The notes below the pieces were generated by a model, which saw nothing but the letters and a program-made list of their open reading frames with translations, ran no database searches and had not been told where the DNA came from. This document shows, one piece after another, positions 2,066-24,423 of a DNA stretch of 24,830 nt; positions within the stretch are counted from its first letter, which is position 1, and each line of letters opens with the position of its first letter. The stretch is taken from IMG/VR virus record IMGVR_UViG_3300020438_003088, positions 1-24,830 of that record; one strand, written 5' to 3'. This DNA is from a virus. The position numbers and the translations under genes were made by a program.

Positions 2066-2507
2066 AGTAAGCAAAGATATCTCACTCATTCCAGAGTGTA
2101 TTAATCACTATCAAACAGAATATCAACACGCACGAAAAGAATGTTCTATTTGGGGTAATTTAGAAAAAGCATCAGCATCAATGCCTGGTGTTGTTGAACA
2201 AAGGTTTAACCAACTACAAGAAATAGAAGCAATACTAGAATATCTAAATATTGAAAAAAGAAGACTTAGATCTAAGACTTTTAAAAAGTTTTTAGAAAAC
2301 TATAACAGAGCATTAACTTCACGTGATGCTGACAAGTATGTCGATGGTGAAGCAGATGTTGTAGACTTAGAAAAAATTATTAATGAATTCGCATTATTAA
2401 GAAACCAATGGTTAGGCATCACCAAAGGATTAGACCAGAAACAATGGCAAATAACAAACATTGTTAAACTCAGAGTAGCGGGGATGGAAGATGCCACAAT
2501 CAAATAG
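2040..2507 (+). CDS. Conserved helical phage protein of unknown function, uvsX operon
   Basis: A 155-residue protein read from ATG 2040, chosen because AGAGGA lies five bases upstream; an ATG further upstream in frame at 2004 would overlap more of the previous gene and has no such site. It overlaps the acidic gene by 26 bases. Residues 52-95 (RFNQLQEIEAILEYLNIEKR and on) look strongly helical and charged, likely coiled coil. The C-terminal half has NEFALLRNQWLGI and ends with KLRVAGMED. I recall close relatives in marine T4-like phages, unnamed. Its place behind uvsX raises the idea of a mediator role like UvsY, but no UvsY signature is recognised. Confidence 0.75.
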   Translation: MTMTNWYTKVSKDISLIPECINHYQTEYQHARKECSIWGNLEKASASMPGVVEQRFNQLQEIEAILEYLNIEKRRLRSKTFKKFLENYNRALTSRDADKYVDGEADVVDLEKIINEFALLRNQWLGITKGLDQKQWQITNIVKLRVAGMEDATIK

Positions 2508-3111
2508 AATAATATTAACAGACGTTGACGGTGTACTGTTAGAATGGGAACATCATTTTACAAAATGGATGTTGCAACGAACACTGTTCGATGAGAGAGG
2601 TGCAAGATATCACCCGCATAGATTACTTCCAGACAAACAAAACACATACGAAATGGCCGAAAGGTTTGGTGTAACCAAAGAACAAATAAGGAAAGAAATT
2701 AGAGAGTTTAATAGAAGTGCATGGATGGGTACGCAGAGACCAATGTTGGAATCACAAACATGGGTAAAATTGTTAGCGGCTGAGGGATGGACCTTTATAC
2801 CAATAACATCACAGACATCTGACATACCAGCACAACAATTACGTAAGAGAAGAATGGGAGAACTGTTTGGCGATCATGTGTTTACAAACTATCATATCCT
2901 AGGCACAGGAGCAGACAAAGACGGTGCATTAGCGGAGTTTCATGATACTGGACTATATTGGGTTGAGGACAAACCTCACAACGCACTAGCAGGTCTTAAA
3001 TACGGTTTAAAGCCTATATTAATCGACCACCCATACAACCGAGATTTTGAACATCCTGATATTATCCGTGTAAATAATTGGAAAGATATACACGGATTAA
3101 TAGCAAGATGA
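2491..3111 (+). CDS. HAD-superfamily phosphatase, nucleotidase-like
   Basis: A 206-residue protein with HAD motif I DVDGVLLEW (nucleophile Asp11, acid/base Asp13), a motif II candidate FIPITSQ near residue 110, basic residues LRKRRM as motif III, and motif IV YWVEDKPHNA near residue 153, giving the second acidic site. The arrangement and length match 5'(3')-deoxyribonucleotidase-like HAD proteins common in large phages, which dephosphorylate nucleotides; a sugar-phosphate substrate is also possible since the next gene is a glycosyltransferase. The start overlaps the previous gene by 17 bases and has GGAAG directly upstream. The stop overlaps the next start as ATGA. Confidence 0.8.
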   Translation: MPQSNRIILTDVDGVLLEWEHHFTKWMLQRTLFDERGARYHPHRLLPDKQNTYEMAERFGVTKEQIRKEIREFNRSAWMGTQRPMLESQTWVKLLAAEGWTFIPITSQTSDIPAQQLRKRRMGELFGDHVFTNYHILGTGADKDGALAEFHDTGLYWVEDKPHNALAGLKYGLKPILIDHPYNRDFEHPDIIRVNNWKDIHGLIAR

Positions 3112-3782
3112 AAATATACGTAGGCCACGATAGTCGTGAAGACATAGCATATCAAGTATGCGAACACTCAATTAAAAGACGTGATCCATCAGCAGAAGTT
3201 ATTCCTTTAAAACAAAAACAAATGCGTGACCAAGGATTGTATACTCGTCCTGTAGACAAGTTAGCATCAACAGAATTTACATTCACAAGATTTTTTGTTC
3301 CTTATCTAAACGACTTTAAAGGTTGGGCAGTGTTCTGTGATTGCGATTTTCTTTGGAAGATTCCAAGCCATGAACTTGTAAAATATTGTGATCCATCTAA
3401 GGCAGTTGTAGTTGTACAGCATGATTACACACCCAAAGAAACAACTAAAATGGATGGTCAAACACAAACAGTGTACCCAAGAAAAAATTGGTCTAGCATG
3501 GTACTTTGGAACTGCGAACATCCTAAGAACAAAATACTAACACCAGAATTGTTAAACGAAGAGTCACCAAAATTCCTACACAGATTTAGTTGGTTAGATG
3601 ACAATGAAATTGGATCTATGCCTGCAGAATACAATTGGTTAGTAGGTTGGTACAAAGAACCCAATGACGGGACTCCGAAAATATTACACTACACAGAAGG
3701 TGGACCGTGGTTTGATGGTTACCGAGACTGCGAGTATGGTGACGACTGGAAAAAAGAATTAATAAATCTTTTTAGTTCGTAA
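3108..3782 (+). CDS. GT-A-fold glycosyltransferase (GT8-like)
   Basis: A 224-residue protein from ATG 3108, which overlaps the previous stop (ATGA); an ATG at 3078 would add ten atypical residues. The N-terminus MKIYVGHDSREDIAYQVCEH is typical of a group of stand-alone glycosyltransferases found in marine bacteria, algae and phages. The metal-binding DxD is DCD at residues 78-80 (AVFCDCDFLW). Further hallmarks are RKNWSSMVLWNC and HYTEGGPWFDGY near the C-terminus. It should transfer a sugar from a nucleotide-sugar donor; acceptor unknown. First gene of the glycan island, co-transcribed with the uvsX operon. Confidence 0.8.
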   Translation: MKIYVGHDSREDIAYQVCEHSIKRRDPSAEVIPLKQKQMRDQGLYTRPVDKLASTEFTFTRFFVPYLNDFKGWAVFCDCDFLWKIPSHELVKYCDPSKAVVVVQHDYTPKETTKMDGQTQTVYPRKNWSSMVLWNCEHPKNKILTPELLNEESPKFLHRFSWLDDNEIGSMPAEYNWLVGWYKEPNDGTPKILHYTEGGPWFDGYRDCEYGDDWKKELINLFSS

Positions 3783-4540
3783 TGAATATATATTCTGTAT
3801 TACAAAAATTTAATCCTGCAACAGATTATTTCACTGACCCATATCCTCACATAATAATCAAAGATTGCTTACCACTAAAAACATATGAATTATTGTATGA
3901 AAACTATCCTGTACAGACAGTTAAAGATAATTTTCCAATAGTCGAAGGATCCACTTACAGAGGACTAGCAAACGATTTTATAAAATCTAAAAGAGTTGAA
4001 GCAAAACAATGCTGGTTAGACTTTTTTGAGTATCATACTTCGCAAGAGTTTTATAATCTAGTGTTACGTATGTTTAATGAAAGACGTTGGATTAAAGACG
4101 AAAAAGTAAAAGTTAGACACACAGAAGGAAACGAAGGTATAGTCACTGATACACAATTCGTAATTCATGAACCTATCACCAAAGGAACAACAAGAACACC
4201 TCACATAGATAATCCGGTAGAAATATATGCTGGTTTACTTTATATGAGGCAAAGAGGAGATAAAGCAAAAGGTGGAGATTTTGTGATATACGATACACAA
4301 CCAATGAGTACTGTTGTAGAAGGAACCGGTAGACAAATAACAAACAATCACAAACTAAAAGAATACAAAACTATTCCTTATAAAGAAAATACTTTTGTAA
4401 TGTTTTTAAACTCAAATAAATCTGTGCATGGTGTAACACCTAGACAAGATCCAGGACACGATAGACTGAGTATTAATATTATTGCTGAGGTTAATAACAA
4501 ATCAAATCGTTTGTTTAAATTACTCGAGGTCAGAGAGTAA
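3782..4540 (+). CDS. 2-oxoglutarate/Fe(II)-dependent dioxygenase
   Basis: A 252-residue protein with the iron facial triad His141-x-Asp143 (RTPHIDNP) and His216 (SVHGVTPR), and the 2-oxoglutarate-binding Arg228-x-Ser230 (HDRLSINI). These fit the prolyl-4-hydroxylase-like 2OG oxygenase family. Such enzymes hydroxylate proteins, nucleobases or small molecules and are frequent in marine T4-like phages. Its start shares a base with the previous stop (TAATG), so it is probably coupled to the glycosyltransferase. It may hydroxylate a sugar, lipid or virion protein; this cannot be told from sequence. The 3' end overlaps the convergent gene by 21 bases. Confidence 0.82.
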   Translation: MNIYSVLQKFNPATDYFTDPYPHIIIKDCLPLKTYELLYENYPVQTVKDNFPIVEGSTYRGLANDFIKSKRVEAKQCWLDFFEYHTSQEFYNLVLRMFNERRWIKDEKVKVRHTEGNEGIVTDTQFVIHEPITKGTTRTPHIDNPVEIYAGLLYMRQRGDKAKGGDFVIYDTQPMSTVVEGTGRQITNNHKLKEYKTIPYKENTFVMFLNSNKSVHGVTPRQDPGHDRLSINIIAEVNNKSNRLFKLLEVRE

Positions 4541-5341
4541 ACGCCAAGCAGTACCGTTACGCATTTCTTCCATAGAAAAATTATTATAAGCAAGTGAACT
4601 AAACAGAGACATTCGATCTCCGTATACAGGTGTTTCAATTTTAGTCAAATCACTTTCTGATATAGGTGCCGCTCCGCACACATCTTGTTCACAAAACACC
4701 GGAACACCATTAGTGAAACTTTCAATCATTGTGTTACTGTTGTATGTTACACAGGCAAAATATTCATTCCAATCTATAGGTCCAGCACTTTTATTTGTTG
4801 GTATATCCATTTTAATCGTTGCTCCTACATGGTCTTTTGTAATGCCTGGATTGTATGGTTTGTCTCTAATAACCAGTTCTCTATCCGTGTTTTCACGCAG
4901 TATTTTAACAGTATTTTCTAGCCAGTGTGTAGCACCAAAGAAGTCTGCAATGGCGTTTGTAGGGGGCAGTATGAGGATCTTAGACCCCTTTTTATGCCAT
5001 GGTTTGATGTTTTGTTTAAAGTATTGCTCATATCGGTCGTTTGGTCTTTTGAACAATTTGGTTTGACAATGTGCATTTTTTGTTATTCTTAACCAATGAG
5101 GCTTGTCATGAGCATTGGTAAAATAACCATGATCCATGAAGTAAAAATCTTTATTTTCTTTTTCGCACCATTTGTATACCTCACCTGATCCTGCAAGTAT
5201 TCCATACATTATTAAAGTTTCGTTTGGTAACTCATTTAATTCTCTCCAATGAAACATCTTAAATGATCCCGGGGTACCTTGCACAAAAGCATCAACATAT
5301 CTTTGAGTTCTTGGTTTAGTTGTGTGTATACCTGCTATCAT
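4520..5341 (-). CDS. Capsule-type glycosyltransferase-like protein, paralog A
   Basis: A 273-residue protein, one of four paralogs in the window. Shared marks: LVIRDKP (residues 156-162; other copies IRPHP or IRVKP), NSNTMIE (201-207), GVPVFC (212-217), then a conserved segment with an SDLTKIETP-like stretch and a tail with SLAYNNFSMEEMRNGTAW. The RPHP-like and serine/glutamate motifs resemble the nucleotide-sugar-binding half of capsule polysaccharide transferases of the KpsC/KpsS type. It is closest to paralog B, sharing YF, HW and a KN-H-KL segment in the N-terminal half. Last gene of the minus-strand operon, its start overlapping the upstream gene's stop as ATGA. Confidence 0.65.
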   Translation of the reverse strand: MIAGIHTTKPRTQRYVDAFVQGTPGSFKMFHWRELNELPNETLIMYGILAGSGEVYKWCEKENKDFYFMDHGYFTNAHDKPHWLRITKNAHCQTKLFKRPNDRYEQYFKQNIKPWHKKGSKILILPPTNAIADFFGATHWLENTVKILRENTDRELVIRDKPYNPGITKDHVGATIKMDIPTNKSAGPIDWNEYFACVTYNSNTMIESFTNGVPVFCEQDVCGAAPISESDLTKIETPVYGDRMSLFSSLAYNNFSMEEMRNGTAWRLLSDLE

Positions 5342-6057
5342 TTATATTCCTTAATGAATGTTTTAAGTACATCAACATCTGCATTAAGATGTCTTTCTTG
5401 TATTTTGCTCCATACATAATCATCTCTAAAATTAATATCTAAATGTTTCCTGACTTGTTTTCCTGTATCATCAAATACCTTTTTTGCTTTGATTGTAACG
5501 TTTGGGAAAAATAAACATCTGTTAAGTTTCCTGGAAACTTTTTGTGTATATGTATCTACGTACCAATGCCAAAAGAAAGGAGGTACAAAATATCCTAATG
5601 TGTCTATCCAATTTTTGTGTACTAAAAAATGTGGAGAAGAAAAAGGAATATCTCCTATTAGTGTTGGCTTTGTTGCTTGTAATAATTTTTTAGGTTTATT
5701 TTTTTCTTTTCCGTCATATGGAATAGCCATTAAAATTTTATCTGGATAATCATTAAATCCGTCAGTCATAATCTTATCCCAGTGTTGGGTTTTAAATTGT
5801 ATATCGTCGCCTGCTAAAAATACATAATCAAATTTAGCCTTCTCTGCCATCAAGTTCCAACTGTAACAAGTAGATCTATTAGGACCTACTGTGTAGTGTT
5901 TTTTATCAATGGTGTCTTTATATTCTTGTAACGTAGGGTCGTCGTCATTGAGATAAATTAAAAATTCTATATCTCCTGCGGCGGTATCATACGCAGTATC
6001 TATCATTCTTTTTGCTAGTTCAGGTCTGCCTCGCGATGGACAACTGATAGAAATCAT
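5338..6057 (-). CDS. Glycosyltransferase-like protein (GT2-type GT-A fold)
   Basis: A 239-residue protein starting MISISCPSRGRPELAKRM, the usual opening of GT2-like transferases, followed by FLIYLNDDDP (residues 32-41) and VFLAGDDIQF (79-88) that can supply the acidic metal and donor-binding site. A segment IPFSSPHFLVHKNW and a Trp/His-rich FFWHWYVDTY follow. Similar proteins occur in large phages and act on nucleotide-sugar donors; acceptor unknown. The start overlaps the epimerase stop and the stop overlaps the paralog A start, both as ATGA, so translation is likely coupled along the operon. Confidence 0.65.
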   Translation of the reverse strand: MISISCPSRGRPELAKRMIDTAYDTAAGDIEFLIYLNDDDPTLQEYKDTIDKKHYTVGPNRSTCYSWNLMAEKAKFDYVFLAGDDIQFKTQHWDKIMTDGFNDYPDKILMAIPYDGKEKNKPKKLLQATKPTLIGDIPFSSPHFLVHKNWIDTLGYFVPPFFWHWYVDTYTQKVSRKLNRCLFFPNVTIKAKKVFDDTGKQVRKHLDINFRDDYVWSKIQERHLNADVDVLKTFIKEYK

Positions 6058-7061
6058 ATTAATTTATTCTTCCAAGTATCTGGAGTGTGTTCATTAATAA
6101 TTTCTAAAGGTAAATGATACTGAAACTTTTTTGTTCCACGTAATCTAATATAATCTGCTGTCTTCTTAACTGACTGTCGCATATTAGTTGCTGTACTGTA
6201 ACCTAATAAATCTCTTGCCTTGTCAGATGAACACGTTGCTAGTTTTACTTCTTTAGGTCTGTCTTTATGATGTATTGGATCTAAATTTATTCCAGTTTCG
6301 TTTGCACAGGCTTCTGCTAATTCATTAATAGTAACAGGTTCTTCGTCCGGTCCAATATTGATTACTTCACCAACAACATTATCCTGAAATGCAAGTGCGT
6401 TTAAGCAATATAGACAATCGTCAATATAACTGAAGCATCTTTGTTGTTTGCCATCACCATATATAATAGGTTGTTTGCCTTGTAACATTCTGTTCAACAT
6501 GATAGACATAACGTTTCTAAATGGATCATCATACTTCTGTCTTGGTCCAACAATGTTGTGTGGTACAGCAATAACATACTCAACTCCGTGTGTTTCGCAT
6601 AAATTTCTCAATACATCCTCGCCGGCCTTTTTTGCGATACCGTATGGATCCTGGGGACGACATTCGTAAGTTTCTTTGTACGGTACTTCATCATGATGAC
6701 CGTATCTTGCCATGCTTGAACAATATACAATACGTTTTACTTTGTTCCTTATGGCCGCTGTAATAGTTGTAACTGACGCTTCAAATATATTTCTTGTAAC
6801 CAGCACAGGAGAAAATACTGACAGTCCTTCGTATGCCGTTGCGGCAGTGTGGTATACAATATCACATCCTTCCATTGCTTTAGTTAGATTTTCTAAATCA
6901 GTGCAATCTACTTGATGGAACTCTACATCTTGTGGCACATTATCTGTATAGCCACCGATCATATTATCATTACCAGCAACTGTGTGCCCTTGAGATATCA
7001 TTAGGTCTGCTAGGTGCGAACCTAAAAATCCTGCCACTCCTGTTATAAAAACTTTAGCCAT
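6054..7061 (-). CDS. NAD-dependent sugar-nucleotide epimerase/dehydratase (extended SDR)
   Basis: A 335-residue extended short-chain dehydrogenase. The Rossmann motif is GVAGFLG (residues 8-14), the active-site Ser is in VYCSSMARYG (about 115-116), and the catalytic YxxxK is Tyr140/Lys144 (DPYGIAKKAGED). Text such as YGDGKQQRCFSYIDD and NIGPDEEPVTI is typical of UDP-glucose 4-epimerase and dTDP/GDP-sugar dehydratase relatives. It should convert one nucleotide sugar into another, supplying a donor for the neighbouring transferases. The exact substrate cannot be assigned. It lies nine bases after the FkbM gene and overlaps the next gene by four bases. Confidence 0.9.
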   Translation of the reverse strand: MAKVFITGVAGFLGSHLADLMISQGHTVAGNDNMIGGYTDNVPQDVEFHQVDCTDLENLTKAMEGCDIVYHTAATAYEGLSVFSPVLVTRNIFEASVTTITAAIRNKVKRIVYCSSMARYGHHDEVPYKETYECRPQDPYGIAKKAGEDVLRNLCETHGVEYVIAVPHNIVGPRQKYDDPFRNVMSIMLNRMLQGKQPIIYGDGKQQRCFSYIDDCLYCLNALAFQDNVVGEVINIGPDEEPVTINELAEACANETGINLDPIHHKDRPKEVKLATCSSDKARDLLGYSTATNMRQSVKKTADYIRLRGTKKFQYHLPLEIINEHTPDTWKNKLI

Positions 7062-7070
7062 TTTTAATAA

Positions 7071-7700
7071 TTATCGGCAATATACCTTGTCAGGCCAAAT
7101 GTTGATTATCTCATAAAAGCCTATTTCTTTTAGGTAACCTTCTATTTGAGTATTGCTTGATCCATATTTTTTTGTGTTGTTGTTAAGTTCGATCATTAGT
7201 AATTGTGTATTTTGTAATGTTTTTTCTGCACCATGTAACACTTTCATTTCGTATCCTTCAACATCAATTTTAATTAAGTCAACATCTGTCCATCCAAAAG
7301 AATCTATTGTTCTAATTGGAATTTTACCTTGACTTTCTTCGATCCTTAGTGCCTGTGTAAAATCATCTTTAGTCATGCTGAGAAATCCTTCCTTATCACC
7401 TAAAGCAAAAACCATAGGATTAATATTAGGATATCTACCTGCATTCCTTTCTAAACACTTGAAGTTAGTACTGTTAGGTTCAAATGCTTTAATACTACCT
7501 GCAAATTCTGACATTTCAGATGCCCATGTTCCACACCATGCACCGACATCAATTACTGTTCTAAATCTTTTTTGTTGAGACGTACACCATTCTTTAAACT
7601 TTAGCAAACATTTATTCTGTGTAAATGGTTTTCCCGACTTCCAATCTTCTATATGGATGTCATTATCTGGCACCCAAAAATCATTAACTTTTACTATCAT
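7071..7700 (-). CDS. FkbM-family methyltransferase
   Basis: A 209-residue SAM-dependent methyltransferase. Motif I is VIDVGAWCGTWA (residues 49-60), motif II AFEPN (72-76), and the family-typical DLIKIDVEGYEMKVLHGA spans about 141-158. FkbM enzymes O-methylate sugars and polyketides and are often found in polysaccharide clusters. Here it probably caps or modifies a sugar of the glycan made by neighbouring genes. It overlaps the start-proximal paralog B by 17 bases, with an AAGAG-like ribosome site in that overlap. The epimerase follows closely. Confidence 0.9.
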   Translation of the reverse strand: MIVKVNDFWVPDNDIHIEDWKSGKPFTQNKCLLKFKEWCTSQQKRFRTVIDVGAWCGTWASEMSEFAGSIKAFEPNSTNFKCLERNAGRYPNINPMVFALGDKEGFLSMTKDDFTQALRIEESQGKIPIRTIDSFGWTDVDLIKIDVEGYEMKVLHGAEKTLQNTQLLMIELNNNTKKYGSSNTQIEGYLKEIGFYEIINIWPDKVYCR

Positions 7701-8502
7701 AGTACTCTTTTATAATATTAACAGCAGTTCCGTTTGCAATTTCTTCTGGTGTAAATTGCTGATATGCTAATGAACATAACCACTGGTATGGGTCAGTAAA
7801 ATTAGGACTTTCTATTTTACTTAAATCTGTAGATGCAACAGGCCTTGCAAAACTTTTCTCATGACAAAAAACAGGAACTCCGTTGCATATTGATTCTATT
7901 GCACTAATAGAACACGAAGTAACACAGGCCCATGCATCCTCTAGATCTTTTTCTAATGAGACTGTTGCTTCACTAGGTCCGGAGGTTCCTCTACCACGTG
8001 GCTTTACTCTTATTTTAATTGGACGGTCTGTGTGCTTTTTAATTTGTGCTATGGTATCATCTAGCCATGTTGTTTGTTTAAGATACATATGAATACCTGC
8101 AGAACTAGGACATACTAGAATATATTTTCCTGATCTTTTTGGTGGTTTAACTTTAATTTTAAACGAATCAAATCTTGCCGAATCAACACTTGTAAGTAAT
8201 TTTGCATGAATGCTATTTTTACACATACGCCACCAATGATTGTCTGGCTTTAAGTTTTTATTGTCAAATCTTCCAAAATAAGGAGTGTCAGTAAACCAGT
8301 AATTTAGTTTTTTATGTTCTATCTTATGTACCAACTGGAGATTATTATTAACAAATCCCCAAAACATACTGTTATCAAGTGGATCTGTTGCTTTTGAATT
8401 ATCTAATGTTTGGTAAGCAGTAGGCCAAGATTTCATTACACCGCCAAAAACTTCCCAGGCTTTGCTTTCAATATTTTCTAAAGGTGCATAAATTGTTAGC
8501 AT
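7684..8502 (-). CDS. Capsule-type glycosyltransferase-like protein, paralog B
   Basis: A 272-residue paralog and the first gene of the five-gene minus-strand operon. Shared family marks are KHTDRPIKIRVKPRGRG, CSISAIESICNGVPVFCHE, STDLSKIESP and SLAYQQFTPEEIANGTA. The N-terminal half shares with paralog A the pattern YWFTD-x-x-YF and HWWRMCKN. The function inferred is transfer of a sugar from a nucleotide-sugar donor. The ATG at 8502 lies only six bases after a perfect TATAAT on the minus strand, so the message may be leaderless. Confidence 0.65.
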   Translation of the reverse strand: MLTIYAPLENIESKAWEVFGGVMKSWPTAYQTLDNSKATDPLDNSMFWGFVNNNLQLVHKIEHKKLNYWFTDTPYFGRFDNKNLKPDNHWWRMCKNSIHAKLLTSVDSARFDSFKIKVKPPKRSGKYILVCPSSAGIHMYLKQTTWLDDTIAQIKKHTDRPIKIRVKPRGRGTSGPSEATVSLEKDLEDAWACVTSCSISAIESICNGVPVFCHEKSFARPVASTDLSKIESPNFTDPYQWLCSLAYQQFTPEEIANGTAVNIIKEYYDSKS

Positions 8503-8528
8503 AGTTATATTATAATTAAATAATTGTC
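8503..8528. promoter_or_regulatory. Compact divergent promoter with TATAAT on both strands
   Basis: Only 26 bases, all but a few A or T, separate two divergent genes. TATAAT occurs on the plus strand at 8511-8516 and, overlapping it, on the minus strand at 8514-8509. The plus-strand box is 12 bases before ATG 8529. The minus-strand box is six bases before the ATG at 8502. No strong -35 is seen on either strand (minus: TTGCAT with a 17-base gap). The -35 elements would have to lie inside the opposite coding sequence. Confidence 0.45.
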
Positions 8529-9575
8529 ATGATGCAAGTTAAAAATATTCAAAGTATTCAGTATTTCCATGACAAGTTTGATGTTATTGATTATCCCCAA
8601 GAGTATTTAAACTGGAAAACTAACCCAACGTATCTTGCTGAATTTGAAGATTGTATGGTGCATACTTGGCCTTTCTTAATAACCAAAATGGGTGGACTAA
8701 TATCAGAACACGTTTGGCCTTTAACATGGAAACAAAAGAAAAAATTAGGACCTAGATCAGGAATATATCCTATGTGGGGAGAAAATGTTGACATTAATAT
8801 TCCTCCGCCATCGAGAGAATTTACCGATACACAAAAGTATGTTTGGTTGCCTATAGACGTTTCGTCAGGAAACAATCCATGGCATATATGGATCGATGTA
8901 ATTGCAAAAATGCGATTGATTGAAAAGAGATTAAACAAACCATTTAAAGAGTTTGTGTATGTTATGCCTCACAAAAGTGAATATATGGAAAAAGTTATTA
9001 GTGATATTGTGCCAGAAATAAAACTTATAGTAATGCCAAAAAATTCTACATGGAAGTTTAAACACATATACGTACCTACTATGTGTAATCATGACGACGG
9101 TGTTGTACTACCTCAATCTGTTAACTGGCTTCGTTCTAGATTTTTACACAAACACGTAGAAAAACCGTATAGAAAACTTTTTATTGACAGGGGTGTTGGC
9201 TCTAGAAAGTTGGCAAATAAAGATGATGTGTTTGCAATTTTAAAAGGATATGAAGTATTAAGATTAGAAGAAATGCCTATACTAGAACAAATGAAAGCAT
9301 TTGCAGAAGCAACACATATAGTTGCTACGCACGGAGCAGGACTTGTAAATCTTTTATGGTGCTTACCTGAAACTCGAGTTATTGAAATTGTACATAAGCA
9401 CACTGCTAAAAAAGTATATCCAAATCTTTCTCATTTATTAGGATTAAATCACAAAGTTGTAATGGGAGAACCTGTGCCTATTGCAAAAACAACAAAAGAA
9501 AAACAATATAAAAGATTAAATGATTATAATGATATTAAATTAGATTCTAGTATTTTAGCACGGAATCTGGAATAA
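8529..9575 (+). CDS. GT61-like glycosyltransferase (DUF563)
   Basis: A 348-residue protein. The hallmark is EATHIVATHGAGLVNLLW (about residues 260-277), the THGAGL-N motif of family GT61, preceded by KLFIDRGVGSRKLAN and LEEMPILEQMKAF, all typical of this family (xylosyl- and N-acetylglucosaminyltransferases). It should add a sugar to an unknown acceptor. ATG occurs at both 8529 and 8532; the first is used here. It stands alone on the plus strand between minus-strand genes, and its last 52 bases overlap the convergent paralog C gene. Confidence 0.8.
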   Translation: MMQVKNIQSIQYFHDKFDVIDYPQEYLNWKTNPTYLAEFEDCMVHTWPFLITKMGGLISEHVWPLTWKQKKKLGPRSGIYPMWGENVDINIPPPSREFTDTQKYVWLPIDVSSGNNPWHIWIDVIAKMRLIEKRLNKPFKEFVYVMPHKSEYMEKVISDIVPEIKLIVMPKNSTWKFKHIYVPTMCNHDDGVVLPQSVNWLRSRFLHKHVEKPYRKLFIDRGVGSRKLANKDDVFAILKGYEVLRLEEMPILEQMKAFAEATHIVATHGAGLVNLLWCLPETRVIEIVHKHTAKKVYPNLSHLLGLNHKVVMGEPVPIAKTTKEKQYKRLNDYNDIKLDSSILARNLE

Positions 9576-10534
9576 ACTTTTCCAGATCTTATTTCATCAA
9601 TCGACCACATCATATAACCTAAGTCATTTAGCCATTGTGTTCTATCTGGGTATTTTGGATTTTCGATATCTTCTAAATTAGTGTTTGCTACTGGCCAACA
9701 AATTGCAAGATCTGAGGTAACAAAGGTAGGGACTCCACGAATACAAGAGTCGACGCTGGCAGTAGAATTGTGAGTAATAACAGCATGACAATTATTTAAT
9801 GCTTCTTGAAAGTTGAATCTATAGTACTTTTTCTCATCTCCGGAGAAATGTTTTTGTCCAATTATTAATTCGCAATCTGGTGGAAACTCGTTTCTCCGTT
9901 CTTCCATTGATGCAACATTGTTAGGGTGTGGGCGTATTAAAAATTTTCTTTTAGTTAATGGTCTCAATTTTTTGTATACATCATTAAACCATTCTATGGG
10001 ATCCAACTCGTTCATACTCCAGTTGTCTTTTGGTTGTAATACAAATAATATTGGAGCATCTGGATTAGGTTTTTGCCATTCGTAGTTTCCAATATTAAAC
10101 AGTTGTTGCATTTCTTTCCATCTGTCGTCTGGTGAATTATCTGCTAAAAAATTTCCATTACGCATCGGAGTCCAAAGTGCAACTCTATATCTGTGATTTG
10201 GAACACCTGATGTATTACCAAAACTTGAACACAGTCCTCCGTCAAATGTTACTACAACACTACCTTTCTTCTTTGCATTCTCAACAAGCATATACCTTCT
10301 ACCTTTAGTGTGATGTTGTTGTCTATCTCCACCATATCCGAACATAACCCCAATCGGTGCTGTAATATTCATTTCGCCGTCTTGTGTTGGTCCTGTCATA
10401 TGCTCGTTAACAATTTCAACTTTATCGCCGGATGCTCTTACACCTTCTGCAAAATCGTATAATAGTTTGTAAGAATCGCCCCGTCTACGATCTTTTACTG
10501 TTCTTCTAAAAATTTGTACTGTTAGATTTTTCAT
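9524..10534 (-). CDS. Capsule-type glycosyltransferase-like protein, paralog C
   Basis: The longest paralog, 336 residues. Family marks are FLIRPHPNN, VITHNSTASVDSCIRGVPTFV, NTNLEDIENPKYPDRTQW and LGYMMWSIDEIRSGKVYSRF. The RPHP motif is canonical here, as in KpsC/KpsS-like and related GT-B transferases. About 60 extra residues at the N-terminus relative to A and B contain a Gly-rich stretch (GVMFGYGGDRQQHH). The last residues extend past the homologous end of the family and run into the 3' end of the GT61-like gene on the other strand (52-base overlap). It is a monocistronic unit. Confidence 0.65.
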   Translation of the reverse strand: MKNLTVQIFRRTVKDRRRGDSYKLLYDFAEGVRASGDKVEIVNEHMTGPTQDGEMNITAPIGVMFGYGGDRQQHHTKGRRYMLVENAKKKGSVVVTFDGGLCSSFGNTSGVPNHRYRVALWTPMRNGNFLADNSPDDRWKEMQQLFNIGNYEWQKPNPDAPILFVLQPKDNWSMNELDPIEWFNDVYKKLRPLTKRKFLIRPHPNNVASMEERRNEFPPDCELIIGQKHFSGDEKKYYRFNFQEALNNCHAVITHNSTASVDSCIRGVPTFVTSDLAICWPVANTNLEDIENPKYPDRTQWLNDLGYMMWSIDEIRSGKVYSRFRAKILESNLISL

Positions 10535-10568
10535 TAAATATACATATAATTATCAAAGGAAATACGTC
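10535..10568 (+). promoter_or_regulatory. Divergent promoter region with TATAAT and strong ribosome site
   Basis: TATAAT lies at 10545-10550 with a weak -35 (TTAGAT, 10522-10527, 17-base gap). AAAGGA follows, eight bases before ATG 10569, giving the clearest Shine-Dalgarno site in the island. On the minus strand TATATG or TATATT within ten bases of the paralog C start could serve as its -10. The region is only 34 bases long. Confidence 0.4.
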
Positions 10569-11489
10569 ATGAGAACATTAGCGGTTGTAACAACTTTCCC
10601 ACCTAACAGATGGGAGGCTTATGGAAAAAGAATGATTGAAAGTTTTATTGACCATTGGCCTGAGGATGTAAAATTATATGTATACTACGAAAAAGAATTG
10701 CCACCAATCACAAATCCTAAAATTGAATATGTAAATCTAGAAGAAGTAAATCCAGACTTACTAGCATTTAAAGAACGTCACAAAAACGATCCAGTTGCAA
10801 ACGGAGAGTTAGAAGAAATAGAAGGCGGAGTAAGAAGACTTCCAGAAGCAGGAAAAAACGATAAAGGCAAAGGATCCTTTCTATGGGACGCAGTTAGATT
10901 TGCACATAAAACATTTGCAGTTGCTCATGCAATGAAAACAATTGACGTTGATGTTGTGTTATGGTTAGATGCTGATACCTATACATTTAGATCAATTCCA
11001 AAAGATTTTGTTTTAAATTTGTTGCCCGAAGACAAACTTGTAAACTATCTAGGACGTGGAGAAAAATATCCAGAATGCGGATGGGTAACTTACAATAGAA
11101 GACATCCTAAGATTACAGAATTTATAAATGTGTGGGTCGACTTATACAAAAATGACACAATATTTAAACACCTCGAATGGCACGACTCTTATGTTTTTTG
11201 GCAAGTTGTAAAACAAGTTGCACCAACTGACGGGGTCGATATTGGCAAAGGTGCTGGAGCCAAAGGACATCATATTTTTATCAATAGTGTACTCGGAGAC
11301 TATGTTGACCACATGAAGGGTAAAAGAAAAGTTAAAGGAAAAAGTTCAGCAACTGATTTGAGATCTACACGCCAGGAAGACTATTGGAAAACTGTTGAGA
11401 ATTACAATCCATTTGCAAAAAATGGTTTTGATCCTAAACAAGCAGAAGACATAATCAGTAAAGTTGCGAAAGGAACCCAAGGGAATTAA
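10569..11489 (+). CDS. GT-A-fold glycosyltransferase with DAD motif
   Basis: A 306-residue protein. It opens with MRTLAVVTTFPPNRW and YGKRMIESF, and has VVLWLDADTYTF at residues 129-140, whose DAD (134-136) is the metal-binding DxD of GT-A enzymes. Later come EWHDSYVFW and a SVLGDYVDHMKG segment, also seen in this group in marine phages. It should use a nucleotide-sugar donor. Its start has a strong AAAGGA ribosome site. It leads a four-gene plus-strand unit (to 13490); its stop overlaps the next start as TAATG. Confidence 0.75.
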   Translation: MRTLAVVTTFPPNRWEAYGKRMIESFIDHWPEDVKLYVYYEKELPPITNPKIEYVNLEEVNPDLLAFKERHKNDPVANGELEEIEGGVRRLPEAGKNDKGKGSFLWDAVRFAHKTFAVAHAMKTIDVDVVLWLDADTYTFRSIPKDFVLNLLPEDKLVNYLGRGEKYPECGWVTYNRRHPKITEFINVWVDLYKNDTIFKHLEWHDSYVFWQVVKQVAPTDGVDIGKGAGAKGHHIFINSVLGDYVDHMKGKRKVKGKSSATDLRSTRQEDYWKTVENYNPFAKNGFDPKQAEDIISKVAKGTQGN

Positions 11490-12367
11490 TGAGAATTGCA
11501 GTGTACCCAGACAATTCTAGTTTAAACGGTAGGCCTGTTTTTGCGGCACTTATCGAACATTTAAAAGCAAAAGGTGAAAAAGTTTTTATAAATGAAGATA
11601 AAAATTGCGACGTCGCTATCATTTGGTCTGTGCTTTGGCAAGGACGAATGGAAAAGAATAAAAAAATATGGGAACAGTTTAGAGGTACAGGAAGACCTGT
11701 TGTAGTTTTAGAAGTTGGTGGGTTACGAAGAAACTCATCTTTTAAAATGGGTATAAACGGAATCAACAGAGAGGCAGATTTTGCTAATCAAACATACGAT
11801 GACAAACGTTGGCCACTGTTTAATCATCAGTTTAGAGAATGGAAACAAACAGGTAATATAATTGTGATCTGTGGACAACATCACAACAGTCACCAATGGA
11901 GAGAGAATCCAGGCTTAAAATCTTACTTTAAACATTGTATCGAAGAAATACGTAGGTACACAGACAAACCTATCATTATTAGACCACATCCGCGAAATAT
12001 TGTACATAATTTTCCGGAGCACAAATACAAACACGTTAGAGTAAATTTACCTAAAAGAGATTGGGGAACTTACGACGATACCGATTTTAAAAAAATACTA
12101 AATTCAACGTGGGCCGTTGTAAATCATAGTTCTAATCCTGCCATGGAGGCAGTAATACACGGTATACCTGTTTTTGTATCTGAAAAAAGTTTATGTCATG
12201 ATGTTGGTAATACAGACTTATCTGATATCATGCACCCGGCAATGCCGGCTAGACAAAACTGGGCAAATCAGTTAGCATATACAGAATGGTTCACAGAAGA
12301 ATTTAGAGAAGGAAAACCATGGGCAAGAATAAGAGAAAGACTATTAGAAAAGTACATAAAAAAATAA
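11489..12367 (+). CDS. Capsule-type glycosyltransferase-like protein, paralog D
   Basis: A 292-residue paralog. Family marks are RYTDKPIIIRPHPRN, VVNHSSNPAMEAVIHGIPVFV, NTDLSDIMHPAMPARQNW and LAYTEWFTEEFREGKPW. The RPHP motif and length match paralog C better than A or B. The opening MRIAVYPDNSSLNGRPVFAA is followed by a Rossmann-like N-terminal domain. It is the only one of the four paralogs on the plus strand. Its 3' end overlaps the next gene by 49 bases. Confidence 0.65.
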   Translation: MRIAVYPDNSSLNGRPVFAALIEHLKAKGEKVFINEDKNCDVAIIWSVLWQGRMEKNKKIWEQFRGTGRPVVVLEVGGLRRNSSFKMGINGINREADFANQTYDDKRWPLFNHQFREWKQTGNIIVICGQHHNSHQWRENPGLKSYFKHCIEEIRRYTDKPIIIRPHPRNIVHNFPEHKYKHVRVNLPKRDWGTYDDTDFKKILNSTWAVVNHSSNPAMEAVIHGIPVFVSEKSLCHDVGNTDLSDIMHPAMPARQNWANQLAYTEWFTEEFREGKPWARIRERLLEKYIKK

Positions 12368-12747
12368 TAAAACCTATACACGTTAAGATTGATAAATTAA
12401 TCACATTAGCAGAATTAGGTCTAGGAGTAGAGCGACCGTTGAACAAAGAAAAACGAGATTGGATTAACAAACTAACAAAACAATCAGAACCGTTGAATCC
12501 AATATTGGTTGCACCGATCAAGGATACAGGATACTATGTTTTGTGTGATGGGTGGCACAGAGTACAGGCTACTAAAAAAATGAAAGAAGACAGCATTGAT
12601 GCTCTTATTATTCCAATTAAATCTGGATTAGGATTAGCAAAAGTAAATAAAATTTTGAGAGACATTGACCAAGAACAAAAATACGGCCTAGGAGTTAGTG
12701 GGTTAATAAACAACTGGGCATTTGATAAACTAATGGAGATAGAATGA
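12319..12747 (+). CDS. ParB/sulfiredoxin-like domain protein
   Basis: A 142-residue protein with a very basic N-terminus (MGKNKRKTIRKVHKKIIK). A ParB-like domain follows: NPILVAPIKDTGYYVLCDGWHRVQATKK (about residues 60-87), whose DGWHR (77-81) is the ParB box II pattern used for nucleotide (CTP/ATP) binding or phosphotransfer. Stand-alone ParB-like folds occur in phages as nucleases, kinases or regulators. It is odd in a glycan operon, so it may act on a small molecule or a protein serine. GAAGGA precedes ATG 12319, which lies 49 bases inside the previous gene. Its stop overlaps the next start (ATGA). Confidence 0.65.
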   Translation: MGKNKRKTIRKVHKKIIKPIHVKIDKLITLAELGLGVERPLNKEKRDWINKLTKQSEPLNPILVAPIKDTGYYVLCDGWHRVQATKKMKEDSIDALIIPIKSGLGLAKVNKILRDIDQEQKYGLGVSGLINNWAFDKLMEIE

Positions 12748-13490
12748 AACAAGTATTTCATATAGGTAAACGACCGGATCCTGACGAGCCAATAACATGG
12801 ACACCATACGAAGGTGAGGAAATAATTGCACGTATGACAATACGCCAAGGTAAAAAAATTGAAGAGCGTGAATGGGTCGAGGATAGAGTTAAAGCAGTTC
12901 CAAAAGGAAAGGCATACTGTATAGGTAATGGCCCATCAAGAAAAGGCAAACTAGATTTAAATTGGTTGCATAACAACGGACAAACTTACGGTTGTAATGC
13001 ACTGTATAGAGATTTTATTCCAACGTATTTGTTTAGTGTTGATAGATTTATGTCTGAAAAAATTGTTAAAGACAAAGTATATGAGAAAACTACGTGCTAT
13101 GCACCTGCAATAGAGATGGCTAGGTCAAAATATAAATTGAATTTAATTCCTCATAACCCTCATTGGATATCAGGTAACGCCGCTTTCTGGACTGCTACAA
13201 TGCACGGACATAAAGACATATACCTAATAGGATATGACTTTAGAGAATACGGTAAAGGAGAACTTAATAACATATACCAAGACACAGAAAACTACGGTAA
13301 ACGAAACAGCGATACAATTTTTGAACCATGGTTACAGCAATACAAAAGTATTTGCAAAAGAAGAAATGATTGTAACTTTACTATTGTACATGACAATCCA
13401 CCAGATTACATAGGTACAATACCTTTTCCAAATCATAAAATTATGTCTTATGCTAACTTTATCGAGAAAGTTGTAGACCCAAGTAGTTAA
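12744..13490 (+). CDS. MptE-like / GT42-like protein
   Basis: A 248-residue protein with KAYCIGNGPSRKGKLDLNWL near residues 56-75 and SGNAAFWTATMHGHKDIYLIGYDF at about 143-166. The GNGPS loop plus the later SG-x-A and IYLIGxDF pattern is shared by DUF115/MptE-like proteins and by GT42 sialyltransferases such as Cst-II. In a glycan island a nonulosonate (sialic-acid-like) transferase is tempting, but no CMP-sugar synthesis genes are seen, so this stays a suggestion. About 50 N-terminal residues before the fold have no recognised motif. The 3' end overlaps the SprT-like gene by 32 bases. Confidence 0.6.
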   Translation: MKQVFHIGKRPDPDEPITWTPYEGEEIIARMTIRQGKKIEEREWVEDRVKAVPKGKAYCIGNGPSRKGKLDLNWLHNNGQTYGCNALYRDFIPTYLFSVDRFMSEKIVKDKVYEKTTCYAPAIEMARSKYKLNLIPHNPHWISGNAAFWTATMHGHKDIYLIGYDFREYGKGELNNIYQDTENYGKRNSDTIFEPWLQQYKSICKRRNDCNFTIVHDNPPDYIGTIPFPNHKIMSYANFIEKVVDPSS

Positions 13491-13872
13491 GTCTGTTTTT
13501 AAAACTATAAAATAGTTTATTGTGATTACCTGTGTTATTACGTAATTTCATTTGATACAAATGTATCATTTCGTGTACTAACGTTTCTAAAAATATTTTT
13601 TTAGTAGGATATTTAGGTAACATTTCTAAAGTGTAGTGACATGGTTTTGTTTTATAAACTGTATAAACAACCTGCCCAAATGCTCCATTTATTCTTTTAA
13701 TTTTTATATCATCAAACTTTGGTAATTTATTATCAAAAATAGCACTGTTGTAGTGATCGTACCAACTAGTAATACAATGCATATTGGTATTAAACTCTGT
13801 GCTGGCACTAGGTCTCTGTAACACTTTTTCCAAATGTCTTTTAAATTTTAATGTTTTTCTTCTTTTATTCAT
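13459..13872 (-). CDS. SprT-like zinc metalloprotease domain protein
   Basis: A 137-residue protein with LVHEMIHLYQ (HExxH at residues 100-104) and a third ligand candidate His117 (GNHNKLF), as in SprT/Spartan-type proteases. The text MHCITSWYDHYNSAIFDNKLP and FGQVVYTV match the usual SprT N-terminal half. The domain is at full length for small bacterial and phage SprT proteins. Spartan proteases digest DNA-protein crosslinks; a similar role in clearing protein roadblocks during phage replication or recombination would fit its place beside UvsW, but that is inference. It is monocistronic on the minus strand and divergent from the UvsW unit. Confidence 0.78.
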   Translation of the reverse strand: MNKRRKTLKFKRHLEKVLQRPSASTEFNTNMHCITSWYDHYNSAIFDNKLPKFDDIKIKRINGAFGQVVYTVYKTKPCHYTLEMLPKYPTKKIFLETLVHEMIHLYQMKLRNNTGNHNKLFYSFKNRLNYLGLQLSR

Positions 13873-13945: not shown

Positions 13946-15286
13946 ATGTTATCAACTCAGAAAATGCCCCAAACCGTTCAAGAATGCATAGAAATATTAG
14001 CATATAACGAACATTTCTGGGAAGGATTCCATGCTCATGAAAAAGATCGCAAAACAATAGGCTCACTTGCTGACACTCAATATCCATGGACAGAAAAACA
14101 AGCCATGTTAGGTTTGAGGATAATCAAGCGATATAAAACACTATTTGAAAAGTATAAAATTAGCATAGACGACTTATGTAATGACCCTCAATGGAGAGAT
14201 CCTTTTAGAAAAATTGATTATGCCAAAGTTTTAGAAAAATTTACAAACGAAAATAACGAGGATCAGTTAGAAATAAGATTTCCTTATTCAGAAAAAATGA
14301 TTGGATTGATACGTTGCCTTAAGGATAAACGAGGATTACCTGCAGGATATTTTAAGTACGACGGCGAAACAAAGAAATGGACTGCGAAATATTCAGATGT
14401 TGTTGCTTATTACATGACATTGATTGGAACAAGATACGATTTTGAATTTGCAGATAAAACAATGTTTGACGACTTTTATGAGATACGAGAAGAGAAAAGA
14501 AAGTTTAAACACATAAAAGTTAACGTAGGCAAAAAAAATCTTGGAGTAGACAATGCTCCTGAATCTTTAGCAGAATACTGGAAAAGCAATATTGCAACAA
14601 AACCGTTACTGCAACAAGTTGATAGTTTAAAAACATTTGGATTGTCTATTCCGATCGGCACTGATAAAGTAACATCACTTGCTGAAAAAATTGCAGTTAC
14701 TACTACAAAAGAAGTTCATGTAAGTCCAGAAAAATGGAATAAAACTCAAGTACTATCTGCTTGTGAAGAATTAAATTTGTTTCCTATAATTTGTCCAGTA
14801 TCGGATCTTTCTTCTGCAGAAGATATACAAGAAATGACTAATTGGTTTTTTGCATTTGCAGAACGAGAAATTACAGATAAACAAGTTGCTTGGGGTTTTG
14901 ATCTTGCAAAGTATCCTATCTCAGATCCACTAGACGATAATCTCTCTAACGATAACATGGATAGTTTTGATGACCCGTATTCACATCTGTACACAAGAGA
15001 GATGACTAAAACACAAAAGAAAAATGTATATAATGAATTTAAGATATTAAACAAAAAGTCAGAAAAGAATAAGTTTATTGGTAATGATACTAAAATTATT
15101 TTTATTAGAAACAAAATACCCCGAACACTACTAAAGTCTGGAGTAAGGCCTACAACAACTTTAAGTTTTATTAGTAATTCATATGCACCTTATGGAGAAA
15201 CTGTAAGGAAATGGCTTGATAATATTCAAAAAAGATTGTATTATAGTACATATACAAATTATGGAAGTGCTATAGACAAAATATGA
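13946..15286 (+). CDS. Unknown protein with helicase-like features, coupled to UvsW
   Basis: A 446-residue protein I cannot assign. Around residues 110-160 there is LEIRFPYSEKMIGLIRCLK then GYFKYDGETKKWTAKYSD, a pattern seen at the front of HARP-like and other SF2 helicases, where an FPY stretch precedes a K-W substrate strand. Near the C-terminus IIFIRNKIPRTLLKSGVRP also looks helicase-like. No Walker A or DEAD box is present, so it would be inactive as an ATPase. An ATG at 13964 is an alternative start. Its stop overlaps the UvsW start as ATGA, so the two are probably made together and may act together. Confidence 0.7.
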   Translation: MLSTQKMPQTVQECIEILAYNEHFWEGFHAHEKDRKTIGSLADTQYPWTEKQAMLGLRIIKRYKTLFEKYKISIDDLCNDPQWRDPFRKIDYAKVLEKFTNENNEDQLEIRFPYSEKMIGLIRCLKDKRGLPAGYFKYDGETKKWTAKYSDVVAYYMTLIGTRYDFEFADKTMFDDFYEIREEKRKFKHIKVNVGKKNLGVDNAPESLAEYWKSNIATKPLLQQVDSLKTFGLSIPIGTDKVTSLAEKIAVTTTKEVHVSPEKWNKTQVLSACEELNLFPIICPVSDLSSAEDIQEMTNWFFAFAEREITDKQVAWGFDLAKYPISDPLDDNLSNDNMDSFDDPYSHLYTREMTKTQKKNVYNEFKILNKKSEKNKFIGNDTKIIFIRNKIPRTLLKSGVRPTTTLSFISNSYAPYGETVRKWLDNIQKRLYYSTYTNYGSAIDKI

Positions 15287-16731
15287 GTTCATGTAAACTG
15301 GTAATAAAAGACGAAGTAAATGTCAAATTTGAAAATTTAGATTTGAAATGGAGACAACGTCTGCACCAAAAATTTAAATATCAGATACCTTATGCTTTTC
15401 ATCTACCTGCTGTTAAGTTAGGAAGATGGGATGGAAAAATTGCATTTTTTGGATTGGGCGGTACAACCTATCTTAGTCTGGTTGAACAAATATTACCCAT
15501 ACTAGAAGACGGTGGTGTGTATGTTGATTTTAAAGATGAACGAGAACAACACGACTTTGAATTTAAATCTATAGACAAAAATTATCTATCTAATATTAAT
15601 TGGCCTACAGGTCACCCTCAAGCAGGACAACCAATAGAATTACGAGACTATCAAGTGGACACTATCAATAAGTTTATTGAAAATCCACAATGCATACAAG
15701 AGATCGCCACTGGTGCAGGAAAGACTATAATCACTGCGGCGCTGTGCCAGTTGGTCGAACCTTATGGACGTACACTAACAATAGTTCCAAACAAAAGTCT
15801 AGTGACACAAACAGAAGAAGACTTTGTTGCTTGTAATCTAGACACAGGCGTATATTATGGTGACCGTAAAGAAGTTGGTAGATACAACACAATAGCAACG
15901 TGGCAAAGTTTAAATGTATTAGAGAAGAAGGCAAAAAACGAACACAGCACCGAGTTCAAAGAATTTGTTGAGGGCATTAACACAATTATAATTGACGAAG
16001 TACACATGGCAAAAGCAGATGTACTCAAAAGACTACTGACAGGACCATTTGCACATTGTGGCATACGTTGGGGACTAACAGGTACAGTTCCAAAAGCAGA
16101 GTATGAGTTCATGGGTATCAAGGTATCTATTGGTGATGTTATTAACAAGTTACCTGCTAAAGAATTGCAGGACAAAGGTGTACTTGCAAACTGTCATGTG
16201 AACGTGTTGCAAACGCAAGACTTAAAAGAATTTAAAAACTATCCAGAAGAATTAAAATGGCTAACTACGGACAGCGATAGAATGACATGGGTCGCTCAAA
16301 CAATAAAAGATATTTCGTCATCAGGCAACACATTAATATTAGTTGATAGAATATCTGCAGGAGAAATATTACAAAAGAAAATAAAAGATTCTGTGTTCAT
16401 ATCGGGATCAACTAAAAATACGGAAAGGAAAGAGCACTACGATGAAGTGTCTACAGCAGAAAGTAAAATCATTATTGCAACATACGGAGTCGCCTCTGTT
16501 GGAATTAATATTCCTAGGATATTCAATCTTGTTCTTATTGAACCTGGCAAATCTTTTGTAAGAGTTATACAGAGTATCGGACGAGGTATTCGTAAAGCAG
16601 AAGACAAAGATAAAGTACAAATATGGGATATTACCAGTTCTTGTAAATTTGCAAAAAGACACCTAACACAAAGAAAAAAGTTTTACAAAGAGGCCAATTA
16701 TCCGTATAATATAGAAAAGATAGATATATGA
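15283..16731 (+). CDS. uvsW: UvsW-type DNA/RNA helicase (SF2)
   Basis: A 482-residue SF2 helicase. Motifs in order: RDYQ (residues 121-124), Walker A ATGAGKT (142-148), DEVH (238-241), GLTGTVP (264-270), an ATYGVASVGINIP stretch, and the arginine-finger motif QSIGRGIRK near the end. Length and an N-terminal domain before the motor match T4 UvsW, which remodels R-loops and stalled forks and switches origin to recombination-dependent replication. It starts inside the previous stop and its stop overlaps the next start, both as ATGA. Confidence 0.92.
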   Translation: MSSCKLVIKDEVNVKFENLDLKWRQRLHQKFKYQIPYAFHLPAVKLGRWDGKIAFFGLGGTTYLSLVEQILPILEDGGVYVDFKDEREQHDFEFKSIDKNYLSNINWPTGHPQAGQPIELRDYQVDTINKFIENPQCIQEIATGAGKTIITAALCQLVEPYGRTLTIVPNKSLVTQTEEDFVACNLDTGVYYGDRKEVGRYNTIATWQSLNVLEKKAKNEHSTEFKEFVEGINTIIIDEVHMAKADVLKRLLTGPFAHCGIRWGLTGTVPKAEYEFMGIKVSIGDVINKLPAKELQDKGVLANCHVNVLQTQDLKEFKNYPEELKWLTTDSDRMTWVAQTIKDISSSGNTLILVDRISAGEILQKKIKDSVFISGSTKNTERKEHYDEVSTAESKIIIATYGVASVGINIPRIFNLVLIEPGKSFVRVIQSIGRGIRKAEDKDKVQIWDITSSCKFAKRHLTQRKKFYKEANYPYNIEKIDI

Positions 16732-19919: not shown

Positions 19920-19927
19920 AATAAATA
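19920..19927 (+). promoter_or_regulatory. T4-late-type promoter before the virion protein gene
   Basis: AATAAATA at 19920-19927 differs in one base from the T4 late -10 box TATAAATA. It lies 16 bases before ATG 19944, with no -35 and no clear ribosome site. This fits expression of a structural gene late in infection. Confidence 0.4.
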
Positions 19928-24388: not shown

Positions 24389-24417
24389 TTGACACTAACC
24401 AAACAATAAATTATAAT
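24389..24417 (+). promoter_or_regulatory. Perfect consensus sigma70 promoter
   Basis: TTGACA (24389-24394) and TATAAT (24412-24417) with the ideal 17-base gap: 12 of 12 consensus bases. It begins on the base after the radical SAM stop codon (24386-24388). Expected +1 falls about six or seven bases after the -10, at or near the A of ATG 24424. It should be a very strong host-polymerase promoter and make a leaderless or nearly leaderless message. Confidence 0.8.
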
Positions 24418-24423
24418 GAAGAC

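Follow-up and report, generated by a model that had tools for sequence, protein, structure and literature searches.

A maintained glycan-gene island between uvsX and UvsW in a marine phage lineage, and the target it may serve

What does a phage make with thirteen genes, nearly all of them glycan-related, placed in the midst of its replication genes? The locus that raises this question comes from a marine phage of the jumbo type and lies in a virus record of 24,830 bases (IMG/VR record IMGVR_UViG_3300020438_003088), the whole of which we call the window, where the island occupies positions 3108–13490 as contiguous open frames, edge to edge, between uvsX and UvsW. Marine phages often carry glycosyltransferase genes, which are usually labelled ‘LPS’ (lipopolysaccharide) or ‘auxiliary’ with no target named. 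The original prediction held that the island is hypervariable, and that it could make a glycan on the virion or change the host envelope so as to exclude other phages. The analyses reported here show a maintained pathway instead, and we assign a probability slightly above one half (about 0.52) to the reading that the island is an expanded, lineage-maintained form of a portable phage glycan module whose glycan is built on a phage protein, likeliest one of the capsid, tail or fibre.

We first ask whether the island is an insertion, and how variable it is. The gene list and boundaries of the original prediction are right, and its flanks are indeed phage core genes, with uvsX upstream and UvsW, primase and helicase downstream. 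The uvsX–UvsW gap measures 13.5 kb in the window, and it is empty or near-empty in the cultured jumbo relatives Phosso (3.7 kb) and XbC2 (1.5 kb) and in a marine contig (L078, about 2 kb); these gaps support the predicted insertion of a glycan island into the replication region. In Atu_ph07 other small genes, 11 kb in all, occupy the same site.

Gene content and order were compared across 160 viral contigs around uvsX and UvsW. The close relatives among them are metagenomic fragments throughout, the contig counts include near-copies, and paralog labels in the distant relatives were assigned by best match. In relatives whose UvsW is at least 82% identical, or whose uvsX is at least 83% identical, a backbone consisting of g06-g12-g13-g08-g14-g15-g16-g18 is nearly always kept: g14 is present in 29 of 29 relatives, g15 in 36 of 36, g16 in 40 of 40, g18 in 43 of 43, g08 and g13 in 26 of 29 each, and g06 in 17 of 18. 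The neighbouring gene g19 is found in 47 of 47. The optional genes are g07, g09 (7/14), g10 (5/11), g11 and g17 (6/43), together with inserted donor-sugar genes. The insertions occur at particular places and encode a CMP-Kdo (cytidine monophosphate–3-deoxy-D-manno-octulosonic acid) synthetase, a GDP-mannose 4,6-dehydratase, an aminotransferase and a sulfotransferase; some relatives have an asparagine-synthase-type amidotransferase between g14 and g15, and one island (L137) carries KdsB, the CMP-Kdo synthetase. In one large group of relatives g08 and g14 lie on the opposite strand, with g08 placed after g13, and in distant relatives (uvsX 75–79%) the island stands at the same site in scrambled order. 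Thus, hypervariability fails for the backbone, and for gene set and order wherever uvsX is at least about 83% identical; it holds for g07, g09, g10, g11, g17 and the donor-sugar genes, and for the distant relatives. The alternating strands, which had been taken as a sign of hypervariability, are a fixed arrangement of the lineage, since the window's strand pattern is common to a whole clade, including relatives with UvsW of 83–84%. In a record of 203 kb, matches to the GT-B family described below, g06, g15 and FkbM are confined to the uvsX–UvsW interval.

The history of the island can be assessed from rates and from trees. The island proteins have low nonsynonymous divergence (dN) while their synonymous sites are near-saturated, as under purifying selection. 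Within four contigs (L012, L013, L014 and L017) g06 evolves more slowly than uvsX, which is itself 75–97% identical across 80 viral contigs, and by these sequence comparisons g06 is the slowest-evolving anchor of the module. The proteins of g06 and g10 are 91–97% identical where their neighbours are 50–60% identical, a pattern that recent transfer might produce. Recent transfer is ruled out, however, by the four-fold sites, which differ by about 0.4–0.65, and the high identity therefore reflects purifying selection. In the trees of g14, g16 and g18 the window's strand arrangement defines one clade, and the same clade is recovered on the flank, with g29 at a support of 100 and with g28 and g30 at 89–90 (not starred). 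The UvsW tree rejects the island clade (p-AU 4e-5, approximately unbiased test), which could be taken to mean that the island was exchanged between lineages. This interpretation is ruled out by the agreement of g28, g29 and g30 with the island, and UvsW is likelier to have been exchanged: it is 91–93% identical in contigs L090, L091 and L093, where neighbouring genes are mostly 30–80% identical, so that the UvsW gene has evidently moved between lineages. On the evidence of these trees, the backbone is inherited with the downstream flank. Given purifying selection and a clade common to island and flank genes, we conclude that the island is an old pathway that has been maintained while its side chemistry changes, and not a hypervariable dump.

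What, then, do its genes encode? The original prediction listed eight transferase-like genes (g06, g08, g09, g12, g13, g14, g15 and g16) along with an epimerase, an FkbM methyltransferase, a 2-oxoglutarate (2OG) oxygenase, and ParB-like and MptE/GT42-like genes, and family searches and structural models confirm this list, the ParB-like match being weak. Four genes pass curated Pfam cut-offs: g13 (8529–9575, plus strand) as glycosyltransferase family 61 (GT61; PF04577, 3.3e-20, 73.2 bits against a cut-off of 27); g11 (7071–7700, minus) as FkbM (PF05050, 1.5e-14, 54.9 against 22.7, with TIGR01444 also above cut-off); g07 (3782–4540, plus) as a 2OG-Fe(II) oxygenase (PF13640, 7.7e-8, 33.6 against 27 bits); and g10 (6054–7061, minus) as an NAD-dependent sugar epimerase/dehydratase of the short-chain dehydrogenase/reductase (SDR) type (PF01370, 1e-48, 166.2 against 20.9), the nearest solved structure to which is UDP-glucose 4-epimerase. 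The GT-A-like transferase g06 (3108–3782, plus) matches phrog_28018 (1.6e-58), has a DxD motif that is invariant in the alignment of relatives, and aligns as a profile to WbbM at E 0.015. For g15 (10569–11489, plus), which belongs to no family, the predicted model (predicted local distance difference test, pLDDT, 86) has a confident GT-A fold, with alpha-1,3-galactosyltransferase and glycogenin as the top Foldseek matches. The GT2-like transferase g09 (5338–6057, minus) matches phrog_14945 (1.4e-28). The MptE/GT42-like g18 (12744–13490, plus) matches phrog_30607 (1.5e-21) and is recognised by no Pfam or NCBIfam family; its profile aligns to the sialyltransferase CstII at E 5.5e-4 over a short N-terminal stretch, positions 56–86, alone. 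The ParB-like g17 (12319–12747, plus; phrog_1033, 2.5e-6, under the Pfam cut-off) overlaps both g16 and g18, and is present in the closest relatives only.

The four remaining genes, g12 (7684–8502, minus; paralog 1), g14 (9524–10534, minus; paralog 2), g16 (11489–12367, plus; paralog 3) and g08 (4520–5341, minus; paralog 4), gave nothing meaningful in searches of Pfam, PHROGs and NCBIfam. The profiles of g08, g12 and g16 align to that of g14 with E-values of 1e-32 to 1e-45 (hhalign: 1.8e-32, 3.7e-36 and 1.3e-45, respectively), and by this measure the four genes are paralogs that have diverged within one family. With a pLDDT of 89, the g14 model is nearest to the retaining beta-Kdo transferases KpsC (GT107), WbbB (GT99) and KrkA (GT140), with Z of 12.9–14.9 against 11.0 for the next family and a root-mean-square deviation of 3.8–5.0 over 244–267 residues; it shares their overall fold, GT-B-like with rearranged domains, and no sequence similarity to these enzymes is detectable. 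In the Kdo transferases QxxxD provides the nucleophile and (K/R)xHP binds CMP (PMC12887879, PMC9587256). The latter motif is common to g14 and g16, whose RxHP is invariant among relatives (22/22 and 23/23, respectively); g08 and g12 have KP where these have HP. At the QxxxD site g14 reads Q-P-K-D-N, with Asp at +3 and Asn at +4; in g16 the +4 position is Ser in 23 of 23, so without the Asp; and g08 and g12 are without the Q. Membership of g14 and g16 in GT99, GT107 or GT140 is thereby ruled out, and with RxHP intact and the QxxxD Asp displaced or absent, the two look like CMP-sugar enzymes outside those families. Several proteins with the g14 fold also occur in Tetraselmis virus 1, a giant algal virus (BFVD A0A2P0VP54, A0A2P0VNK4 and others), two of them annotated as ‘capsule polysaccharide biosynthesis protein’.

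The evidence on target comes from smaller homologous modules elsewhere, which were sought in 385 alphaproteobacterial genomes and at 80 divergent viral loci taken by g06. GT-B genes accompany g06 at 40 of the 80 loci. The window itself has no glycosyltransferase genes within a virion block; several modules do. In a prophage within a 4.6-Mb alphaproteobacterial chromosome (L351) the module lies inside the morphogenesis operon, where terminase, portal, protease and major capsid genes are followed by GT42-like, GT-B, GT-B, FkbM and g06, and then by head-tail adaptor, tail completion, tail tube and tape measure genes. A second alphaproteobacterial prophage (L352) has GT-B, GT-B, a methyltransferase-like gene, a further open reading frame and g06 ahead of tail tube and tape measure. 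In the Caulobacter phages C1 and CcrColossus the module stands between tail genes and lysozyme/endolysin, and in the podovirus ctDrO704 FkbM-g06 falls between major capsid and head-closure-type genes. Pelagibacter phage Mosig has a g15-like gene, g06, two GT-B genes and a sulfotransferase in one run, and in a Synechococcus phage KdsA/KdsB adjoin the g06 homolog. Collagen-like (G-x-y repeat) genes, possible fibre substrates, lie directly upstream of g06-type transferases at L290:3078-4121 and L307:4159-5121.

Cellular genomes rarely carry the GT-B family (6 of 385, at least one of these a misbinned phage contig), and a genome scan gave five GT-B matches, all on contigs with the module or much of the island, which we read as phage. 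There is a counter-example in the low-GC genome G182, with a single GT-B gene in an island with an integrase-like gene (identified by eye) and g06 as a separate chromosomal gene. Homologs of g06 are found in 46 of the 385 genomes, so that the set as a whole cannot be called virus-only. Lone chromosomal g06 homologs in Alphaproteobacteria (L353; G182:C1:283921-288181) stand beside TPR-type proteins, again as judged by eye, which suggests a role in cellular protein glycosylation. Five species-representative metagenome-assembled genomes hold contigs with the island or module (L174, L175, L176, L177 and L178), apparently misbinned phage, under titles of Verrucomicrobia TMED56, Flavobacterium, Rickettsiales MED657, a Pacearchaeota and a Euryarchaeota. 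There is no usable signal for host assignment, as the titles of the genomes with matching contigs contradict one another (Verrucomicrobia, Rickettsiales, Flavobacterium, archaea).

Stepwise cytoplasmic glycosylation of a phage protein is favoured because the island has no membrane-spanning transferase, lipid-carrier transferase and flippase families were not found in 16 relatives' records, homologous modules lie in virion operons, and the GT-B family is rare in cells. With respect to assembly on polyprenol, as for O-antigen or capsule, the island has no initiating phosphoglycosyltransferase or flippase gene, and neither PF02397 nor PF01943 (lipid-carrier transferase and flippase) was found in the records of 16 relatives, where controls matched and other carrier families were not searched. 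We picture soluble cytoplasmic enzymes that would build one oligosaccharide step by step, with a phage-encoded protein as acceptor, most likely one of the capsid, tail or fibres. An early step, the addition of an invariant sugar, probably falls to g06, which evolves most slowly and is almost always present. CMP-activated ulosonic acids (Kdo or its kin) are probably what the four GT-B paralogs and g18 transfer, taken from host CMP-Kdo or, in some relatives, from the product of the phage's own KdsB; CMP-Kdo as donor is suggested by the modelled fold, the motif, the KdsB of an island and the KdsA/KdsB of the Synechococcus phage. The chain would be extended by g13, g15 and g09, and g10, g11 and g07 would supply or modify sugars through epimerisation, O-methylation and hydroxylation. 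We infer the donor sugars, the order of steps, the virion acceptor and the benefit, which may be shielding, adsorption or stability. More tentatively still, and with doubt outweighing belief, a widespread virion-glycosylation module may exist that puts ulosonic-acid-containing glycans on capsid or tail proteins and takes its largest form in this marine lineage. Such a system, unnamed in the libraries and literature searched, would comprise GT42-like, GT-B (Kdo-transferase-like, without the known nucleophile), FkbM and g06 genes, and would span jumbo phages, Caulobacter giant phages, pelagiphages and alphaproteobacterial prophages.

Several observations weigh against a virion target, and most of them favour its main rival, a serious one though we consider it unlikely: that during infection the island's enzymes alter the envelope of the host, at the LPS core or O-chain, and so keep competing phages from adsorbing. 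Kdo and heptose belong to the LPS core, whose transferases are also soluble; soluble transferases of that type would be enough, and the Kdo- and heptose-activating genes of relatives, as precursor genes, fit LPS-core chemistry too. In its own lineage the island sits among replication genes and not virion genes. Moreover, in 51 of 52 relatives g29 is preceded, at a distance of about 20 bases, by ATAAATA (in the window at 19921–19927, plus strand), a motif that by inference from T4 biology would be a late promoter. Island genes have this motif upstream in 4 of 418 cases, and it is about 7 times rarer within islands than outside them. Because T4-type late promoters are almost lacking, the island is probably expressed with the replication genes, before the virion proteins, and such early or middle placement suits the envelope. 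Furthermore, the virion glycan is a prediction; the virion-operon contexts come from homologous modules outside the window's lineage and were counted without a matched control; and the cellular homologs of g06 give part of the set a cellular use. An envelope role is also the published reading for pelagimyophage glycosyltransferases (PMC7029224). Against it stand the homologous modules that unrelated phages and prophages carry within their capsid and tail operons, the lack of PF02397 and PF01943 in the 16 records, the scarcity of GT-B family genes in cellular genomes, and the Synechococcus phage, which has Kdo-synthesis genes even though a passage in PMC4515613 reports cyanobacterial LPS without Kdo. 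Of the two targets originally proposed, therefore, the virion is the better supported, by way of modules in unrelated phages and prophages and not of the window itself, and the envelope, with exclusion of other phages, is what it chiefly has to be weighed against.

The replication-gene neighbourhood and the lack of late promoters would also suit glycosylation of phage DNA, in the form of hypermodified bases that protect against restriction, for which a passage in PMC9023294 offers a precedent in the thymidine substitution of ca 1 kDa in phage YerA41. This account is very improbable: a thymidylate-synthase-family (hydroxymethylase) gene was not found in the records of 16 relatives, the 203-kb one included, these records being fragments; no known DNA-glucosyltransferase family is represented among the island genes; and the virion-operon modules speak against it as well. 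Somewhat less improbable, if still quite unlikely, is some other intracellular target, such as a protein of the host, a storage glycan or a phage protein that is not part of the virion, or a mixed load that forms no one pathway. That several island genes are optional, and that lone g06 homologs lie beside TPR-type proteins in alphaproteobacterial chromosomes, would accord with this view, but a fixed eight-gene backbone under purifying selection argues for a single pathway.

The remainder of the window is as follows. The left flank comprises a gp32-like protein, recognised by position and homology, the uvsX/RecA-like recombinase g02 (764–1825, plus; PHROG_97, E 1.7e-65) and g03–g05, of which g05 (2491–3111, plus), HAD/NT5C-like by phrog_420 (5.8e-28) and with NT5C slightly under cut-off, overlaps the start of g06. 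On the right are the conserved neighbour g19, an SprT-like metallopeptidase (13459–13872, minus; PF10263, above cut-off), g20, the UvsW helicase g21 (15283–16731, plus; phrog_16, 6.9e-79), primase and helicase. The virion-protein-like g29 (19944–20726), with a weak virion structural PHROG match, is the single probable late gene within the replication block. After the helicase, 23414–24828 holds a radical SAM protein and then, truncated where the window ends, an FAD/NAD oxidoreductase-like gene. Scans for consensus promoters and terminators gave fewer sites than expected by chance, and no tRNA genes were found in the window.

Since homology links this enzyme set to modules in the capsid and tail operons of prophages and of phages that can be grown, the choice among virion, envelope and DNA is open to direct laboratory test. 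Near the Kdo transferases, the GT-B family would form a new branch, rare in cells and distinguished from GT99, GT107 and GT140 by its altered catalytic site, the lack of HP in two members and four paralogs at one locus of a phage. With GT42 enzymes such as CstII the likeness is confined to the short N-terminal match of g18, although a GT42-like gene also heads the module in the Caulobacter phages and the L351 prophage. Among whole systems, the ‘host recognition cluster’ of pelagimyophages and cyanomyophages is likewise a large island rich in glycosyltransferases that marine T4-type phages carry in addition to the T4 core, and Mosig shares with our island its run of g15, g06 and two GT-B homologs. 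That cluster, however, belongs to the structural region, where it stands with tail fibres between VrlC and gp14, and is non-syntenic (PMC7029224), whereas the present island is flanked by uvsX and UvsW, includes no tail-fibre gene and keeps a conserved backbone. The aquatic large ‘moraphages’ have several glycosyltransferases in their conserved gene set (PMC12619734); they are a different lineage, likened here by description only, and no island or target is described for them there. In mycobacteriophages, according to a passage in PMC12619734 citing Freeman et al. 2023, the presumed substrate of phage-encoded glycosyltransferases is capsid or tail protein; compared with that system, the one proposed here is predicted from its genes, would serve unrelated hosts, and draws on many more enzymes.

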